Shown here piece by piece: positions 1,337 to 37,967 of a stretch of DNA of 41,525 bases. Source of the DNA: a virus; IMG/VR virus record IMGVR_UViG_3300042923_000582, positions 1 to 41,525 of that record; one strand, given 5' to 3'. The translations under genes were made by a program, and so were the position numbers. The notes beneath the pieces were generated by a model. It was given only the letters and a program-made list of their open reading frames with translations. It was not told the DNA's origin and ran no database searches. How positions within the stretch are numbered: position 1 is the first letter of the stretch; the number at the start of each line of letters is the position of its first letter.

Positions 1337-1672
1337 ATGAGAGGTAAATGTGCAAAACAAGAAACTATTGCAGTTATAGAAAATAATGGTCAGTATTGGA
1401 CTGGGTCAAATTGGTGCGAAAATGCACAAGAAATATGTCCTAGAAGTGATATGCCAACGGGAATCGGATACGAACTATGCAAAACAATATGCAAGCAAAA
1501 TAATCACGCAGAAGTTGATGCTTGTATAAATGCTAGAGAAAACGCAGATGGAGGTACGCTTTATTTGATAGGGCATACATATTGCTGTGATAATTGCAAA
1601 AAGGTTATGAAACAACATGGCATAAAAAAAATTATAATAGGCAGAACCCCATTCGAGAAGAGGGATAAGTGA
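1337..1672 (+). CDS. deoxycytidylate (dCMP) deaminase
   Basis: This 111-residue zinc deaminase should convert dCMP to dUMP, feeding dTTP synthesis during phage replication. The zinc site is visible: HAEVDAC (about residues 57-63) contains the His ligand and the proton-shuttling Glu, and CCDNC (about residues 82-86) supplies the two Cys ligands in place of the usual PCxxC. The length is short for the family (about 140-180), with a compact N-terminus. The ATG directly follows the upstream stop, and GGGGCGG precedes it. The stop overlaps the methyltransferase start (TGATG). Confidence 0.85.
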   Translation: MRGKCAKQETIAVIENNGQYWTGSNWCENAQEICPRSDMPTGIGYELCKTICKQNNHAEVDACINARENADGGTLYLIGHTYCCDNCKKVMKQHGIKKIIIGRTPFEKRDK

Positions 1673-2208
1673 TGAAGTTCATAGATATGTTCTCCGGCAT
1701 CGGCACTGTAAGAATGGGATTTGAACAGGCAGGACATGAATGCGTTTACTCAATAGAATGGGATAAACACAAAAGGGGGATTTACAATGTTATTTTCGGT
1801 GAAGAACCACGGGGGAGAGATATTAGGACAGTACGAGCAAATGAGCTTCCTAGAGCCGACATATGGACATTTGGCGCACCTTGCCAGGACTTCTCAATTG
1901 CAGGAAGGCGAGAAGGACTTGAAGGAGATAGAAGCAGCCTTATTAGAGAAGTATTTAGACTCGTTAGGGAAACTAAAGAAGAACATAGACCCGAATGGCT
2001 GCTCTATGAAAATGTTAAGGGAATGCTTTCATCAAATAAAGGATTTGACTACCTCGAAATACTCTTTGAAATGGAGTCGCTTGGGTACGATATCGAATGG
2101 CAATTGCTCAACTCAAAAGATTTTGGAGTACCCCAAAATCGTGAGAGAGTGTTCACTATCGGACATTCTCGAAGATATGGTGAAAGAAAAGTATTTCCTA
2201 TCAGATGA
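1672..2208 (+). CDS. C5-cytosine DNA methyltransferase, catalytic N-terminal part (first frame)
   Basis: This 178-residue open frame carries the catalytic core: motif I DMFSGIGT (about residues 4-11), motif IV GAPCQDFS with the nucleophilic Cys (about 69-76), motif VI YENVKG (about 110-115) and motif VIII QNRERVF (about 154-160). It stops at 2208, before the target-recognition region and motifs IX-X. Those lie in the overlapping frame 1787-2830, offset by +1. A full enzyme therefore needs a frameshift near 2150-2205, two associating polypeptides, or else the gene is broken. The start at 1672 follows AGAGGG and overlaps the deaminase stop. The likely role is self-methylation against host restriction. 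Confidence 0.85.
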   Translation: MKFIDMFSGIGTVRMGFEQAGHECVYSIEWDKHKRGIYNVIFGEEPRGRDIRTVRANELPRADIWTFGAPCQDFSIAGRREGLEGDRSSLIREVFRLVRETKEEHRPEWLLYENVKGMLSSNKGFDYLEILFEMESLGYDIEWQLLNSKDFGVPQNRERVFTIGHSRRYGERKVFPIR

Positions 2209-2830
2209 CGTTGTGGAAAAGCTTATATGTAAGGCGGAAAACAGTGAATATAAGAATCCTCAAGCAAGATATAGGCCACAAATTGGTGATGGGTCGTATG
2301 CACTCAGAAGTCAAGAATTTGTTAGAACCGGGTTTTCTAATGAATGTCTTACACTTTCCGCAAGGGATTATAAAGATCCAAAATGTGTATGCGTAGGAAT
2401 GCTGGATATACCGGGGCAAGAAAATATTAGGAGAGTATATGATACAGAAGGTATAGGTCCTTGTTTGACAACAATGGAAGGAGGTAACCGGCAGCCAAAA
2501 GTATTAATTAAAGAAAATACGAAACAAGGTTATGTCGAAGCATATGAGGGTGATGGAATTAGACTTGACCATATAGGCGGCACAACTGGTAGGGCGAGAG
2601 TACAGCCACAAAGAAGCAACACTCTGACAACCGGGGACCATGCTGGAGTAATAGATAAAGGCTTTAAAATACGGAAGTTAACACCTAAAGAATGCTGGAG
2701 GTTGCAAGGGGTAAAAGACGAAATAACAAATCGAGTAATGGCTGCAGGAATATCAGATACACAAATGTATAGGGGAGCAGGAGATGCTTGCACAGTTAAT
2801 GTGATATATGAAATAGCTAAAAGATTATAA
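1787..2830 (+). CDS. C5-cytosine DNA methyltransferase, C-terminal part (second frame)
   Basis: This 347-residue frame overlaps the catalytic frame for 422 bases. From about residue 130 it reads as a real methyltransferase tail: LSDILED and EKYFLSDDVVEKL, a target-recognition stretch, RKLTPKECWRLQG (motif IX, about 298-310) and a Gly/Asn-containing motif X-like end (GAGDACTVNVIYEIA). It stays open through the whole overlap and its ATG at 1787 has GGGGGA at good spacing, so independent translation is possible. The N-terminal 120 residues match no domain I know and may simply be the frame-shifted reading of the catalytic core. A split enzyme of the M.AquI kind, a programmed +1 shift, and an indel all remain possible. 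Confidence 0.7.
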   Translation: MLFSVKNHGGEILGQYEQMSFLEPTYGHLAHLARTSQLQEGEKDLKEIEAALLEKYLDSLGKLKKNIDPNGCSMKMLRECFHQIKDLTTSKYSLKWSRLGTISNGNCSTQKILEYPKIVRECSLSDILEDMVKEKYFLSDDVVEKLICKAENSEYKNPQARYRPQIGDGSYALRSQEFVRTGFSNECLTLSARDYKDPKCVCVGMLDIPGQENIRRVYDTEGIGPCLTTMEGGNRQPKVLIKENTKQGYVEAYEGDGIRLDHIGGTTGRARVQPQRSNTLTTGDHAGVIDKGFKIRKLTPKECWRLQGVKDEITNRVMAAGISDTQMYRGAGDACTVNVIYEIAKRL

Positions 2831-26134: not shown

Positions 26135-27409
26135 TTGGATCTCGCTATATTAATCACATTCACTGGCATAGGCTACTATATCTTATCAGAGTTTTTCGCC
26201 AAAGAGCAAACATTAGAAGATTACCTAAGGCACGGCATTAATACTGGTCAAACTGGTACTGGCAAATCTGTTAAATGCAGAAATGATATACTTGAATTTA
26301 AAAAATATGGTGGCTGTTTATTTATAGACCAACATGGAGTAGATAGCGAAAAGCTTTTAAATGAAATACCATTGGAAGATGTAGAAAGAACTATATATAT
26401 TAATCCCGCTGATTTAGAAATGCCTATAGGAATTAGTGTTTTTAGTGATGAAAAAGGGGAGCTGCAGAACGAATTATCTGTTAACCAATTGATATCCATA
26501 TTTGAAGCTTTATGGTCAAATAGCATCGGGCCACAAACTGAAGATTTAATAAGAATGTCTAGTTTATCCATAGTAGAGCAGGAAATATCAACTTTACTCG
26601 AAGCTTATTTAATGCTTACAAGTGAACAGTACAGAAATAGTATTAATGTAAAAAATGAAGTAGCGAAAGATTTTTGGGAAAATTGTTTTCCTGATTTTAA
26701 ATCAACTCAATTAGCGCCGCCCTTAAATAAATTTCGTGCATTAATTGCTCCAACTGTGCATAGGCTTGTACTATGTCAGAGTAAACCGAAACTAGACCTA
26801 CTTCAAGCCATGGACGAAGGTAAAATAATTATCTGTAATTTTTCTCAAAAGTTAGGGGATAAAACAAGTCAACTTTTATCAGCTATCACCGTAAGCAAAA
26901 TACAACTATTAGGCTTTACTCGAGATGAAAATAGTAAACCTTTCGGAGTATTCCTTGATGAATTTCAAAATTATGTTATAAGAACATTTTCCAAGTTTCT
27001 TTCAGAAGCACGAAAATTCAATATGCCTATGAGTTTATATCACCAATATAATTCGCAGGTTCCTGATTGGTTACTTGATGCCATTGCCGGAAATTGCGGA
27101 AGTAGATATAGCTTTAGAGTCGGAGAATTAGATGCAGCATACCTAGCTAAATTTCTAAAACCTTTTACTGAAGATGATTTAATTAATTTGCCTAATTTCA
27201 AGTATATTGCAAAGCGACTAGTCAATGGCAAAAAGGAAAAGCTTGCAATCAAGTATAAGGCTCCAAAACCTCCAAAGGTGTATGGTTATGGCGAAGAGAT
27301 TAAAAAACGTTCTAGGGAACTTTACGGCACACCAAGGGGCAAAGTTGAGGAAGATATTAAAAATAGGATTAATGCAAAAACGAAAAGCACAAATGAGGGG
27401 GAATTTTAA
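26135..27409 (+). CDS. VirD4/HerA-type DNA-transfer ATPase (coupling protein-like)
   Basis: This is a 424-residue protein. One N-terminal membrane helix (about residues 2-20) precedes a RecA-like motor with Walker A GQTGTGKS (about 39-46), Walker B-like GVFLDEFQNY (about 271-280), and a C-terminal region of the TraG/TraD-like kind (LINLPNFKYIAKRL). Such hexameric ATPases pump plasmid DNA in conjugation. It is not the packaging motor, which is terL. The start is TTG at 26135 behind GGGGGTAG; no ATG suits better. It is coupled to the next gene as TAATG. Neither a relaxase nor other mating genes are visible, so any transfer would need a helper. Confidence 0.75.
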   Translation: MDLAILITFTGIGYYILSEFFAKEQTLEDYLRHGINTGQTGTGKSVKCRNDILEFKKYGGCLFIDQHGVDSEKLLNEIPLEDVERTIYINPADLEMPIGISVFSDEKGELQNELSVNQLISIFEALWSNSIGPQTEDLIRMSSLSIVEQEISTLLEAYLMLTSEQYRNSINVKNEVAKDFWENCFPDFKSTQLAPPLNKFRALIAPTVHRLVLCQSKPKLDLLQAMDEGKIIICNFSQKLGDKTSQLLSAITVSKIQLLGFTRDENSKPFGVFLDEFQNYVIRTFSKFLSEARKFNMPMSLYHQYNSQVPDWLLDAIAGNCGSRYSFRVGELDAAYLAKFLKPFTEDDLINLPNFKYIAKRLVNGKKEKLAIKYKAPKPPKVYGYGEEIKKRSRELYGTPRGKVEEDIKNRINAKTKSTNEGEF

Positions 27410-28167
27410 TGATACTGACTAAAAGAGATAAGCAAATGTTAATCACACTTCATAACAATAGGTTTATGAATACCGACCAAATTGCGGAGCTCTTCTATAA
27501 ATATGACGAAGAAGGCAAAGAAAATAAACTATATAGAGATATTGCCTTAAGACGGCTCCGCAAAATGAAAGCTAAAGAAAACTTATTGATACTTGAATAT
27601 ATTCCCTATGCTAGAGAGAGTAAAGTCTATACCCTAGCCGAAAAAGGCTCAATCATGGTATGCAGTTGGCTTAATAAAAAATATGAAAGCTTTACATCTA
27701 AAAATGATATGCTCCAAATAGGCTTAGTCGAACACAGTTTAGAGATAAATGATATATACATACGATTACTGGCATTATGCCAAAAATACAATTATGAAAT
27801 GCTGGCTTTCTTAGTTGAAAGACACAATCGCAGAACAGTAAAGCATAATGGAATGAATATGACTTTTCAACCCGATATGTTTATGATAATAAAAAATAGA
27901 TCCACACAAAAAGGCAAAGCCTATTATGTTGAATTAGACCGAAACACCGAAGCACCTAAGAAGTTTGCACAAAAGGTTATAGCCTATGAATCCTTTTATC
28001 ATGCTGATGTGTTTAAAGAGGATTGGAACAATCAAAACATAAGACCTGACATATTAGTATTAACCGATAATAAAAATCGTTCTGAAAGGCTACAAAGTGC
28101 AATCAAGAGTAGTTTGAAATGGGTATTTATAGAGAAGGATAATATAGAAATAATATTTAGGGGGTAG
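27409..28167 (+). CDS. replication-relaxation (MobC-like) family protein
   Basis: This is a 252-residue protein. A winged-helix N-terminus (LTKRDKQMLITLHNNRFM, TDQIAELF, LRRLRKMK) is followed by a nuclease-like alpha/beta domain with QPDMFMII and YYVELDRNTE (about 154-180), where Asp, Glu and Lys are arranged as in restriction-like folds. The order of domains matches the replication-relaxation proteins of Gram-positive plasmids and integrative elements, which often lie beside a HerA/FtsK-like ATPase as here. It may bind or process the neighbouring non-coding DNA in transfer or replication. Confidence 0.7.
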   Translation: MILTKRDKQMLITLHNNRFMNTDQIAELFYKYDEEGKENKLYRDIALRRLRKMKAKENLLILEYIPYARESKVYTLAEKGSIMVCSWLNKKYESFTSKNDMLQIGLVEHSLEINDIYIRLLALCQKYNYEMLAFLVERHNRRTVKHNGMNMTFQPDMFMIIKNRSTQKGKAYYVELDRNTEAPKKFAQKVIAYESFYHADVFKEDWNNQNIRPDILVLTDNKNRSERLQSAIKSSLKWVFIEKDNIEIIFRG

Positions 28168-29503: not shown

Positions 29504-29887
29504 CTATTTTATTTCAATATTTTTCCTAAAATAATCTATCATATATCTAACAAACGCACTTTCATTTTCAAACTTTTTAGCCGTTTCCTTTATATATTTC
29601 TTCTGCGACCTTGTAACATTTGCTACAAGTCTTTCGTCTACCAATTCAGATTTAACAGGGGTTTCAACAGTGTACTTATTAGTGACATTGTTAGTGTACT
29701 GTGTAGTGCCTTGTTCATTGTCATTGTTACTACTTTGTTCACTACCTTTGTTATTGTCTTGTTCATCATTCTGTGCATTGTCTTTGTCATTATCTTGCTT
29801 AGTATTAAGTTCACTATCTTTCTGAAAAAAAATGCCGACCCCTTGCCCTGGCTTTATCCTCTCCGATATATTAACCTTGCTCGCCAC
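29504..29887 (-). CDS. RHH partition partner (ParB-like centromere binder)
   Basis: This is a 127-residue protein. About residues 22-72 are a low-complexity run of Asp, Asn, Gln, Ser and Thr. The last 55 residues (LVANVTRSQKKYIKETAKKF, then SAFVRYMIDYFRK) read as a ribbon-helix-helix DNA-binding domain. Small ParA proteins of type Ib usually pair with such RHH proteins in place of HTH ParB. The start overlaps the end of parA by 17 bases. It would bind a centromere and load onto ParA. The N-terminal extension is unusual; it may be disordered and promote clustering. Confidence 0.7.
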   Translation of the reverse strand: MASKVNISERIKPGQGVGIFFQKDSELNTKQDNDKDNAQNDEQDNNKGSEQSSNNDNEQGTTQYTNNVTNKYTVETPVKSELVDERLVANVTRSQKKYIKETAKKFENESAFVRYMIDYFRKNIEIK

Positions 29888-30608
29888 GATCTATTACCTC
29901 CTGTGCTAATCTTTCGTATAATTCACCTAACTCTTTATCAATATCACATACTGGCAAACCTTCAACAGTTGAATCTTGGAAAGCAACTCTATCAGGTATA
30001 ACCACATTAAAAGCTAATCCAGTACCTTGAATGATTTCTAACACTTGTTTATTATGGTTATTTTTCTTGAACATTGTCGGCAACAAGCCTAGTATTTTTA
30101 ACTTAGGATTATAAGCCCTACATTCCTCTATTGTATTCTGCAACAAGCCGAAACCTTCCCAACATAGGAATTGAGTTTGCATCGGTACTACTACCCCATC
30201 AGAAGCCACCAAAGCATTTATAGAAAGGTTTCCTAATGACGGAGGGCAATCTATAAGGATATAGTCGAAGAAGTCTATAACTGGCTTTAAACAGTTTTTA
30301 AGGGTATCGTGTTTGCCTTTCAACTCCAACTCTGCAGCCGCCAAATTAATATTGCTTGGTACAAAGAAGAAATTCTCATTGTCTGTGATTATATCTTTTC
30401 TTATGTCATACCCATTCAACACATTGTATATTGTGGTTCCCATCAGATGCGGTTCAAACTTCATGCTGATTGTTAAACTGCTCTGTGCATCAAAGTCTAT
30501 CAGTAGTACTTTTTTACCTTTGTTGATTAATGCCCATCCTAAGTTTAATGTTGTAGTGCTTTTACCTATGCCACCCTTTTGATTAATGATTGATATTACC
30601 TTTGCCAT
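29871..30608 (-). CDS. parA: ParA partition ATPase (type Ib-like)
   Basis: This is a 245-residue protein. Deviant Walker A KGGIGKST (about residues 11-18), switch I-like DFDAQSSLT (about 39-47) and Walker B ILIDCPPS (about 118-125) identify it. There is no N-terminal HTH, so autoregulation is probably by the partner protein. It positions the plasmid prophage at division by ATP-dependent nucleoid binding. It lies directly downstream of rep and overlaps its partner gene. Presence of a partition system with no integrase is strong support for a plasmid-like prophage. Confidence 0.93.
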   Translation of the reverse strand: MAKVISIINQKGGIGKSTTTLNLGWALINKGKKVLLIDFDAQSSLTISMKFEPHLMGTTIYNVLNGYDIRKDIITDNENFFFVPSNINLAAAELELKGKHDTLKNCLKPVIDFFDYILIDCPPSLGNLSINALVASDGVVVPMQTQFLCWEGFGLLQNTIEECRAYNPKLKILGLLPTMFKKNNHNKQVLEIIQGTGLAFNVVIPDRVAFQDSTVEGLPVCDIDKELGELYERLAQEVIDRGEQG

Positions 30609-31887: not shown

Positions 31888-31917
31888 TTGACAACGGGTA
31901 TTATAATGGTATATTAT
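31888..31917 (+). promoter_or_regulatory. promoter of the MazF-helical repeat-peptide operon
   Basis: TTGACA (31888-31893) is a perfect -35; TATATT (31910-31915) or TATTAT (31912-31917) gives spacing of 16 or 18. The region upstream to 31784 is very AT-rich with two related TATAC-AATAA elements (31806 and 31856), possible XRE sites. Confidence 0.75.
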
Positions 31918-31939
31918 GGTTTTGGGGGTGTTCAGCAGC

Positions 31940-32506
31940 ATGAGAAAAAGAATAAGACGCGGAGATATATGGTTCATAAATACACCGGAAGGAATAGGGT
32001 GTGAACAGCAAGGCGATAGAGTTGCATTGGTAATAAGTCCGGATATATGCCAAGAAAAATCAGACAATGTAATCGTCTTACTGGGGACAAAACAAGAGAA
32101 AAAAGTAGACCTTCAAACTCAATTTGTAGTAAATACGGATTGGGGTTTGAAATATGATACAGTTTTCATGGCAGAGCAAATCAAAAGTGTAGATAGACAA
32201 AGATTTATGATGTACTGTACTCACTTAGATAATTTCAAGATGCAGGAAGCTCATAAAGCAATGTGTGTAGCGCAAGGATTACTTGAACCTATCAATAATA
32301 AATACATCAAATTACTAATCGACTACATAAATATGCTAGATCAAGAATTAATAACATATCAATCAGCTTCTGTGCAAAAATTGCGAGAAGAAAAAATCAT
32401 TGAGTTAAAAGAATACTGTGAAGAATACAGATATGACTACAGAGTGTTTCTCGAGAGGTACTTGTTGTTTAAGGAGGTCGAGAATATTGAAAGAATTTAC
32501 AGCTAG
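31940..32506 (+). CDS. MazF/PemK-like endoribonuclease with helical C-terminal extension
   Basis: This is a 188-residue protein. Residues 1-110 match MazF: RRGDIWFINTPEGIGCEQQG, DRVALVIS (catalytic Arg), LLGTKQ (catalytic Thr) and FMAEQIKSVDRQRF. Such enzymes cut mRNA at short motifs. Residues 110-188 are helical and charged, well beyond the usual 110-120 length of MazF, with no antitoxin gene adjoining. It is first in an operon with a helical-repeat protein and a secreted repeat peptide, and overlaps the second gene, so the extension may dock that protein. ATG 31940 follows GGGGGTG. Confidence 0.8.
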   Translation: MRKRIRRGDIWFINTPEGIGCEQQGDRVALVISPDICQEKSDNVIVLLGTKQEKKVDLQTQFVVNTDWGLKYDTVFMAEQIKSVDRQRFMMYCTHLDNFKMQEAHKAMCVAQGLLEPINNKYIKLLIDYINMLDQELITYQSASVQKLREEKIIELKEYCEEYRYDYRVFLERYLLFKEVENIERIYS

Positions 32507-37019: not shown

Positions 37020-37967
37020 ATGGAGTTATGGCAATTAAGGCAAAGGCAGAGCAATCCATTAGAAGTGAAAGAAGTAATATCAGAATTACGAATAAGGCAA
37101 TGGTATGAAGCGAACGAAGGCAATGTTTATGTGAGTTTCTCAGGGGGCAAAGATAGTACGGTTTTACTTGATTTAGTATGGTCTATATATCCTCATGTGC
37201 CAGCAGTTTTCATTGACACAGGGCTTGAATATCCAGAAATAAGGGATTTTGTTAAAACCTTCGGGGATAAAGTGAAATGGTTGAAACCCAAAATGCATTT
37301 CAAAGAAGTAATAAAAAAATATGGATATCCTGTTATCAGTAAAGAACAATCATTTCGCATAAGGAAATTAAGAAACCAAAATCTTACTGAAAAGTACAGA
37401 ACAGCACAGCTTGAGAAACTAGGCAAGTGGAAAACATTATTAGCTGCTCCGTTTGAGTGTTCAGAACAATGCTGTAATGCAATTAAGAAAAAGGCGTTCA
37501 AAGAATACGAAAAGAAAACTGGAAATAAGCCAATTATAGGCATGATGGCAGCAGAAAGTAGTTATAGAGAACAGCAATACCTTGAAACAGGTTGCAATGC
37601 TTTTAATCTTGGTAGACCGCAGAGCCAACCAATAGCCTTTTGGACTGAAAAAGATATATGGGATTATCTAAACACCTATAAAATTCCTTATAGTAAAATT
37701 TACGATATGGGAGAAACAAGAACAGGTTGTATGTTCTGCATGTTTGGCGTTCACCTAGAAAAAGAACCTAACAGATTTCAACGAATGGCAACAACACACC
37801 CACAGTTATATGATTACTGCTTCAAGGAGTTAGAAGAAGGTGGACTTGGTTTAGGGCATGTACTCGATTATATTAATGTCCCATACAGAATTTATGAAGG
37901 AAAGTTTTTAAGCGAATACAGAAAGGTTAACGGAAAGTATCAAGAACAGTTAAAAATGATAATTTGA
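37020..37967 (+). CDS. PAPS reductase-family (PP-loop) protein
   Basis: This is a 315-residue protein. The PP-loop SFSGGKDSTVLLDL (about residues 40-53) binds ATP or PAPS, and FIDTGLEYPEI (about 66-76) and a CMFCMFG Cys cluster (about 239-245) complete the pattern. Phage members of this family are related to DndC and to sulfate reductases. The cluster could hold iron-sulfur. With two C5-methyltransferase-like genes nearby, a role in modifying DNA is possible; no dndB, dndD or dndE is present. A different sulfur or nucleotide use is equally open. Confidence 0.8.
   Translation: MELWQLRQRQSNPLEVKEVISELRIRQWYEANEGNVYVSFSGGKDSTVLLDLVWSIYPHVPAVFIDTGLEYPEIRDFVKTFGDKVKWLKPKMHFKEVIKKYGYPVISKEQSFRIRKLRNQNLTEKYRTAQLEKLGKWKTLLAAPFECSEQCCNAIKKKAFKEYEKKTGNKPIIGMMAAESSYREQQYLETGCNAFNLGRPQSQPIAFWTEKDIWDYLNTYKIPYSKIYDMGETRTGCMFCMFGVHLEKEPNRFQRMATTHPQLYDYCFKELEEGGLGLGHVLDYINVPYRIYEGKFLSEYRKVNGKYQEQLKMII

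Follow-up and report, generated by a model that had tools for sequence, protein, structure and literature searches.

The alpha and beta genes of the C5-methyltransferase M.AquI overlap, and the beta chain of M.EcoHK31I is read from another frame inside alpha. In M.AquI (CYCGRG), the alpha chain carries motifs I-VIII and the beta chain carries motifs IX-X and TRD sequence, and in M.EcoHK31I (YGGCCR), also a two-chain C5-methyltransferase, motifs I-VIII, the TRD and motif X reside on alpha, with only motif IX on beta (PMC3404938). Overlapping methyltransferase ORFs were noted in 2017 in S. thermophilus 5093-group phages, and that paper cites earlier notes of overlap, from 2003 and 1998, in a pneumococcal phage and Tn5252 (PMC5601072). 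Its passage on the overlap reports neither a selection analysis nor a function, complementarity or a fused variant. An HNH endonuclease is also hidden in an insertion within a phage methylase (PMC11855218). A search of the open literature found no functional or evolutionary analysis of the overlap, family-wide selection, complementarity or split variant.

The window, the whole stretch of DNA that was analyzed, comprises the 41,525 bases of one virus record, a single metagenomic virus contig, and has genes for a terminase, a P22-like portal and a replisome-organiser. With genes for a Replic_Relax protein (27409-28167, +), a ParA-like ATPase (29871-30608, -) and a PemK/MazF-like protein (31916-32506, +), the genome is perhaps that of a phage-plasmid. 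A protein with a PAPS-reductase domain (E 4e-25) is encoded at 37020-37967, within the replication region.

The original prediction assigned C5-methyltransferase motifs I-VIII to one frame, up to 2208, and motifs IX-X to the +1 frame, up to 2830, and both the ORFs and the Pfam matches agree with this assignment (Table 1). ORF1, which could start at GTG 1669 or ATG 1672, has motifs I-VIII with the catalytic PCQ and ENV, and matches profile positions 1-165 of Pfam DNA_methylase PF00145 (E 2e-55). ORF2, with the TRD and motifs IX-X, matches positions 185-321 of the same profile (E 1e-9). The second frame is open under the first for 422 bases (1787-2208), and has its own ATG at 1787 with GGGGGA six bases 5' of it, both as had been described. 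Residues 34-145 of ORF2 match phrog_16143 (E 1e-18). The window has the +1 ORF of ~140 codons that characterizes this family, within the methyltransferase gene and ending in LSDILExxVxEKYFLS, but its nested ORF does not stop ~30-60 codons after NRER, apart from TRD-IX-X, and is a fused variant.

Table 1. Features of the methyltransferase locus (window coordinates)
Feature	Position	Strand	Remarks
ORF1 (putative alpha chain), 178 aa	1672..2208	+	motifs I-VIII and 'GHSRRYGERKVFPI' linker; stop directly after linker
GGGGGA, Shine-Dalgarno-like sequence for ORF2, within ORF1	1775..1780	+	same in L001 and L003
ORF2 (putative beta chain), 347 aa	1787..2830	+	+1 frame; nested ORF joined to TRD and motifs IX-X
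Nested ORF, N-terminal part	1787..2155	+	wholly within ORF1; no stops in relatives; weakly constrained at the amino-acid level, fold prediction not confident
Dual-coded segment	2156..2203	+	frame 2, LSDILEDMVKEKYFLS; frame 1 (bases 2158-2205), IGHSRRYGERKVFPIR
ORF2 TRD region	2204..2665	+	swapped relative to L001; 2306-2388 has 85% DNA identity to in-frame methyltransferase L081
Motifs IX-X, frame 2	2666..2827	+	2759-2830 is 100% identical to L001

Both frames had been described as methyltransferase-like near 2160-2205, and both proved canonical over 2156-2205. Alignment of the protein families in both frames, which had been proposed as a check, matched each frame to methyltransferase protein: the frame 1 reading, IGHSRRYGERKVFPI, agrees with single-ORF relatives (such as L004, LGHSRRYGERKIFPI), and the frame 2 reading, LSDILEDMVKEKYFLSD, agrees with in-frame segments of another methyltransferase class. 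The double methyltransferase reading at 2156-2205 greatly exceeds chance expectation: in 64 relatives, the score of the +1 frame at the segment averages 4.8 s.d. more than that of synonymous-codon shuffles of frame 1. Mean identity in the segment is 69% for frame 2 versus 49% for frame 1, and base variability there peaks at the third codon position of frame 2. The segment is the terminal sequence of the nested ORF, LSDILEDEVDEKYFLS (the LSDILED segment), and other methyltransferases hold the same sequence in the main chain, corresponding to approximately residues 191-209 of M.HhaI. In the in-frame class of phage methyltransferases, an LSDILED-type segment is found in the chain ~20 residues past motif VIII.

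Phage C5-methyltransferases of the GH-linker type (GH-type) have the sequence NRERVFIIGHLRGxxxRKVFPI after motif VIII. The amino acid identity of ORF1 is 93% to L001, 77-82% to L002-L007 and 69-82% to L002-L011, and the nearest relatives have their entire enzyme in frame 1. Relatives with a single ORF had been named as evidence that would refute a second chain. Such relatives exist (L001-L009, 325-459 codons), but they do not refute it, because they too carry the +1 ORF nested inside their single-ORF genes, and the same overlap that was to be sought in relatives is therefore present. In translations of the relatives, the +1 frame is open for at least ~100 codons before motif VIII and ends in LSDILEDxVxEKYFLS. 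Since this holds in single-ORF relatives, the openness is a family trait and not a peculiarity of the window. The original prediction did not recognize this +1 ORF as an overlapping gene that is old and shared by the whole family.

We compared +1-frame stops with those in shuffles that preserve the frame-1 protein and the codon usage of the gene. Two such stops were observed in a first set of 53 non-redundant GH-type genes, where 186 were expected, and the controls gave 608 stops against 483 expected in the third frame and 241 against 223 in the in-frame class. An enlarged set of 100 non-redundant GH-type genes had 12 frame-2 stops (405 expected), 89 genes that were stop-free in frame 2 (1.4 expected) and 1081 stops in the other frame (908 expected). 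In 75 related methyltransferases that lack the nested ORF, 610 stops were observed and 606 expected, and stop counts in the enlarged set split nested from non-nested genes with almost no intermediates. Chance openness arising from codon usage is ruled out by the shuffles together with the in-frame class and third-frame controls. As the sequences are related, we claim no p-value, and the evidence is the contrast with the controls. Statistically, the nested frame is shown to be an old, selected coding frame in the GH-type family.

The open region has definite limits, with stops frequent before ~codon 45 and back in most genes ~33 codons after motif VIII. Synonymous variability of frame 1 is ~1.05 in codons 1-40. 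It falls to ~0.8, the value for the overlap, near the start of the nested ORF, and the segment itself has 0.13-0.4. Among close pairs, which are not independent, 356 of the 808 changes that replace a residue in frame 1 leave the frame-2 protein unaltered, compared with an expected one third or so, and changes that create a frame-2 stop number 19 of 1,935 (~6% expected). Amino-acid constraint on the nested frame 5' of the segment is weak. In per-gene shuffle tests, the Shine-Dalgarno match before nested starts averages 4.93 nucleotides versus 3.75 expected, and that of other methyltransferases 3.53 versus 3.39.

PHROG 16143, named DNA methyltransferase, holds the nested protein, and the nested ORF of L157 matches it with an E-value of 1e-53. 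Of 200 genomes sampled separately from the class of L260, eight have the nested ORF, with no stop in any match; a search for a clean nested ORF in 369 genomes from the class of L309 gave no stop-free match. The nested ORF is also present in the archaeal virus Drs3 and in one Desulfobacterales contig. No free-standing copy of the nested protein was found among 324 pooled sequences, where seeming copies were in-frame methyltransferase segments. Streptococcus agalactiae ATCC 13813 (L327, genome G002) has four nested-type methyltransferase genes, and every nested frame is stop-free.

When genes were searched with a segment profile made solely from in-frame proteins, 96 of the 99 open-frame genes had the segment in frame 2 and 41 closed-frame genes had it in frame 1; no gene had it in both. 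The single open-frame gene with the segment in frame 1 comes from a Bifidobacterium MAG, and its open frame is taken as compositional. An in-frame enzyme aligns through the segment to M.HhaI 191-209 and the alignment of the GH-type enzyme L001 ends at HhaI 169, so the main chain is without the stretch that the nested product has. In other C5-methyltransferases, this segment is located in the chain where the small domain begins. The end of the nested ORF is methyltransferase-derived and complementary to the main chain. Judging from these alignments, the most likely role of the nested product is that of a small subunit, which would supply the segment in trans.

On a tree of the catalytic half (172 genes), some of whose deep branches are weakly supported, three changes account for nested versus not nested. 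The 34 genes of the main in-frame phage class (the LKDMLED class) fall inside the nested group, a position that hints that nesting is old. Together with the second in-frame lineage formed by L081 and L122, this position suggests more than one transfer of the segment out of the nested frame and into the main chain. AlphaFold gave a mean pLDDT of 52 for a nested ORF, with just the C-terminal 30 residues near 85, and a pLDDT of 53 for ORF2 of the window; these models are confident only in the LSDILED segment and motifs IX-X. Foldseek returned insignificant methyltransferase matches only, and a search for solved structures related to the nested protein gave no significant match. A wider match of the nested profile to the in-frame TRD of L296 was set aside, because motif VIII in frame 1 forces most of that frame-2 part.

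DNA identity between the window and L001 is ~95% to base 2151, then falls to 70% and 62% over two successive 40-base blocks, and is complete at the 3' end (Table 1). L081, an enzyme with the segment in frame that forms, with L122, a second in-frame lineage on the catalytic-half tree, shows protein homology to the window extending from LSDILED to within the TRD. This homology to L081 runs on in frame 2 (window/L081, SDDVVEKLICKAENSEYKNPQARY / SDELVNKLIIKAKESEYTNKNAVY), and frame 1 of the window has stops at 2206 and 2230, soon after the segment. The window thus has its C-terminal half on the nested frame, with a recombinant pattern. The same fusion was reached independently in L080, from another sample and 48% identical, and L023 and L042 carry a variant in which the nested frame encodes the distal TRD and motifs IX-X. 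This second split layout (L023:3152-4006, L042:3128-4060), in which the main frame ends inside the TRD and the nested frame continues, is conserved in two isolates. A clear fused state is rare, occurring in the window and L080, and could be short-lived or inactive.

Other irregularities were seen in related genes. One isolate genome has two related prophage methyltransferase genes, L013 and L014, and the latter has an apparent indel at an A run, shifting the rest of the enzyme onto the nested frame. Perfect short repeats occur near the TRD in phage C5-methyltransferase genes, namely (GAACA)9 at L116:2466-2511, (ACAG)12 at L116:2645-2693 and (ACAG)7 at L074:3639-3667. The reading frame is interrupted near the repeats of both L116 and L074, and phase variation of the methyltransferase is possible.

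We propose an account that combines a nested second gene, recombination at the segment and, in the window, two separately translated chains that assemble in the manner of M.AquI, and we assign a probability of roughly 0.6 to this account as a whole. On the statistical evidence, GH-linker-type genes contain a second gene of ~140 codons, nested in the +1 frame and ending in LSDILEDEVDEKYFLS, a segment without counterpart in the main chain, and the product would most likely be a small subunit giving the segment in trans. In the window, recombination at the segment with an in-frame, L081-like methyltransferase would have replaced the 3' half, as is supported by the breakpoint at ~2152 and the DNA similarity to L081. 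Because the shared segment is in frame 2 of the recipient, recombination within it would have placed the acquired TRD and motifs IX-X in frame with the nested ORF rather than with the main one, which stops at 2206. The predicted outcome is a 178-aa alpha chain with motifs I-VIII and a 347-aa beta chain made of the nested N-terminus, the TRD and motifs IX-X. The two would be translated separately, beta from ATG 1787, and may assemble into one active enzyme with an M.AquI-like partition. Judged by its sequence, the window enzyme probably consists of two proteins whose genes share one stretch of DNA.

A TRD-swapping recombination might instead have left the gene out of frame and the enzyme inactive. 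Such a dead chimera would fit the rarity of the fused state and the early frame-1 stops of the window, whereas L001, at 93% identity, is intact; L014 and L098/L255 also resemble simple one-base indels. However, both ORFs in the window are otherwise intact, with no additional stop or frameshift, and similar layouts arose independently in L080 and L023/L042, so we consider this outcome unlikely. It is also conceivable, though decidedly doubtful, that the nested ORF is a real gene but encodes no subunit, and that the DNA shared with the methyltransferase specifies, for instance, a regulator, an inhibitor or an anti-defence protein. The tie to the enzyme comes from sequence comparison, and a fold is predicted with confidence for only a minor part of the nested protein, but its conserved C-terminus is homologous to an in-chain methyltransferase segment, the two locations of the segment are mutually exclusive, and the nested ORF can carry TRD-IX-X, as in the window and L080.

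Among the three alternatives listed in the original prediction, a split two-chain enzyme like M.AquI fits best, and neither a base-call or deletion error nor a programmed shift fared well. An incorrect base count that divides a single ORF might be suspected in a single contig whose nearest relatives are single ORFs in frame 1. Both frames are nevertheless canonical through 2203. Between 2156 and ~2230, frame 2 shows unbroken homology to the in-frame L081 and to the tails of nested ORFs, and any indel in that stretch would therefore disrupt one of these readings. As L080 has the same layout in another sample, sequencing or assembly error is very improbable. Least probable is programmed +1 frameshifting that fuses ORF1 and ORF2 into one chain. 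In its favor, the second frame is indeed +1 to the first, and ORF1 ends in TGA with a C after it, which makes for weak termination, but within 2194-2209 no recognized slippery codons precede the TGA (CCT ATC AGA TGA), and RNA structure is not significant (z -0.8). Moreover, ORF2 has a separate start with its Shine-Dalgarno-like sequence, and frame 2 is open family-wide for ~110 codons upstream, which is needless for a shift near 2200. Base-call error, programmed shift and decay are all less likely than an M.AquI-like split of an old nested frame.

The methyltransferase gene of phage SpSL1 has the nested ORF. In the SpSL1 genome, RmCRGC is methylated at 102 of 113 RCRGC sites (PMC6755750), and by this measure the GH-type family is active in nature. 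There is perhaps an even chance that the large phage C5-methyltransferase family is heteromeric, such that the small subunit of an overprinted nested gene gives in trans the small-domain segment that is in cis elsewhere, and that recombination at the segment, located in different frames in two methyltransferase classes, splits one-chain enzymes, as in the window. Many phage and prophage cytosine methyltransferases carry a one-chain annotation. If the nested ORF is a required subunit, the annotated protein would fail when expressed from a recoded gene, and methylome predictions from single genes would mislead. If true, this would be a strongly supported long same-strand overlap in phages with a plausible function, and the window illustrates a route to naturally split methyltransferases.

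In phage P0092, gp45 is annotated as nested in gp44. The overlaps of P0092 gp44/gp45, the pneumococcal phage and Tn5252 involve the same kind of nested ORF as the GH-type family. The hidden HNH endonuclease similarly is encoded within a phage methylase gene in a different reading frame, but it is a putative homing endonuclease on a mobile insert, whereas the nested ORF lies in the catalytic core and has a methyltransferase-derived end. Compared by description, M.EcoHK31I resembles the window in that two polypeptides come from one locus, although its partition, with motif IX only on the small chain and the TRD and motif X on the large chain, is different. The TRD and motifs IX and X are all on ORF2 in the window and all on the main chain in GH-type relatives, and the GH-type main chain, unlike that of M.EcoHK31I by the same comparison, holds everything but the LSDILED segment. 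M.AquI is like the window in having motifs I-VIII on one chain and TRD sequence with motifs IX-X on a second ORF. Unlike in M.AquI, the beta ORF of the window begins deep in alpha, adding ~123 N-terminal residues from the nested gene, and holds the entire TRD.
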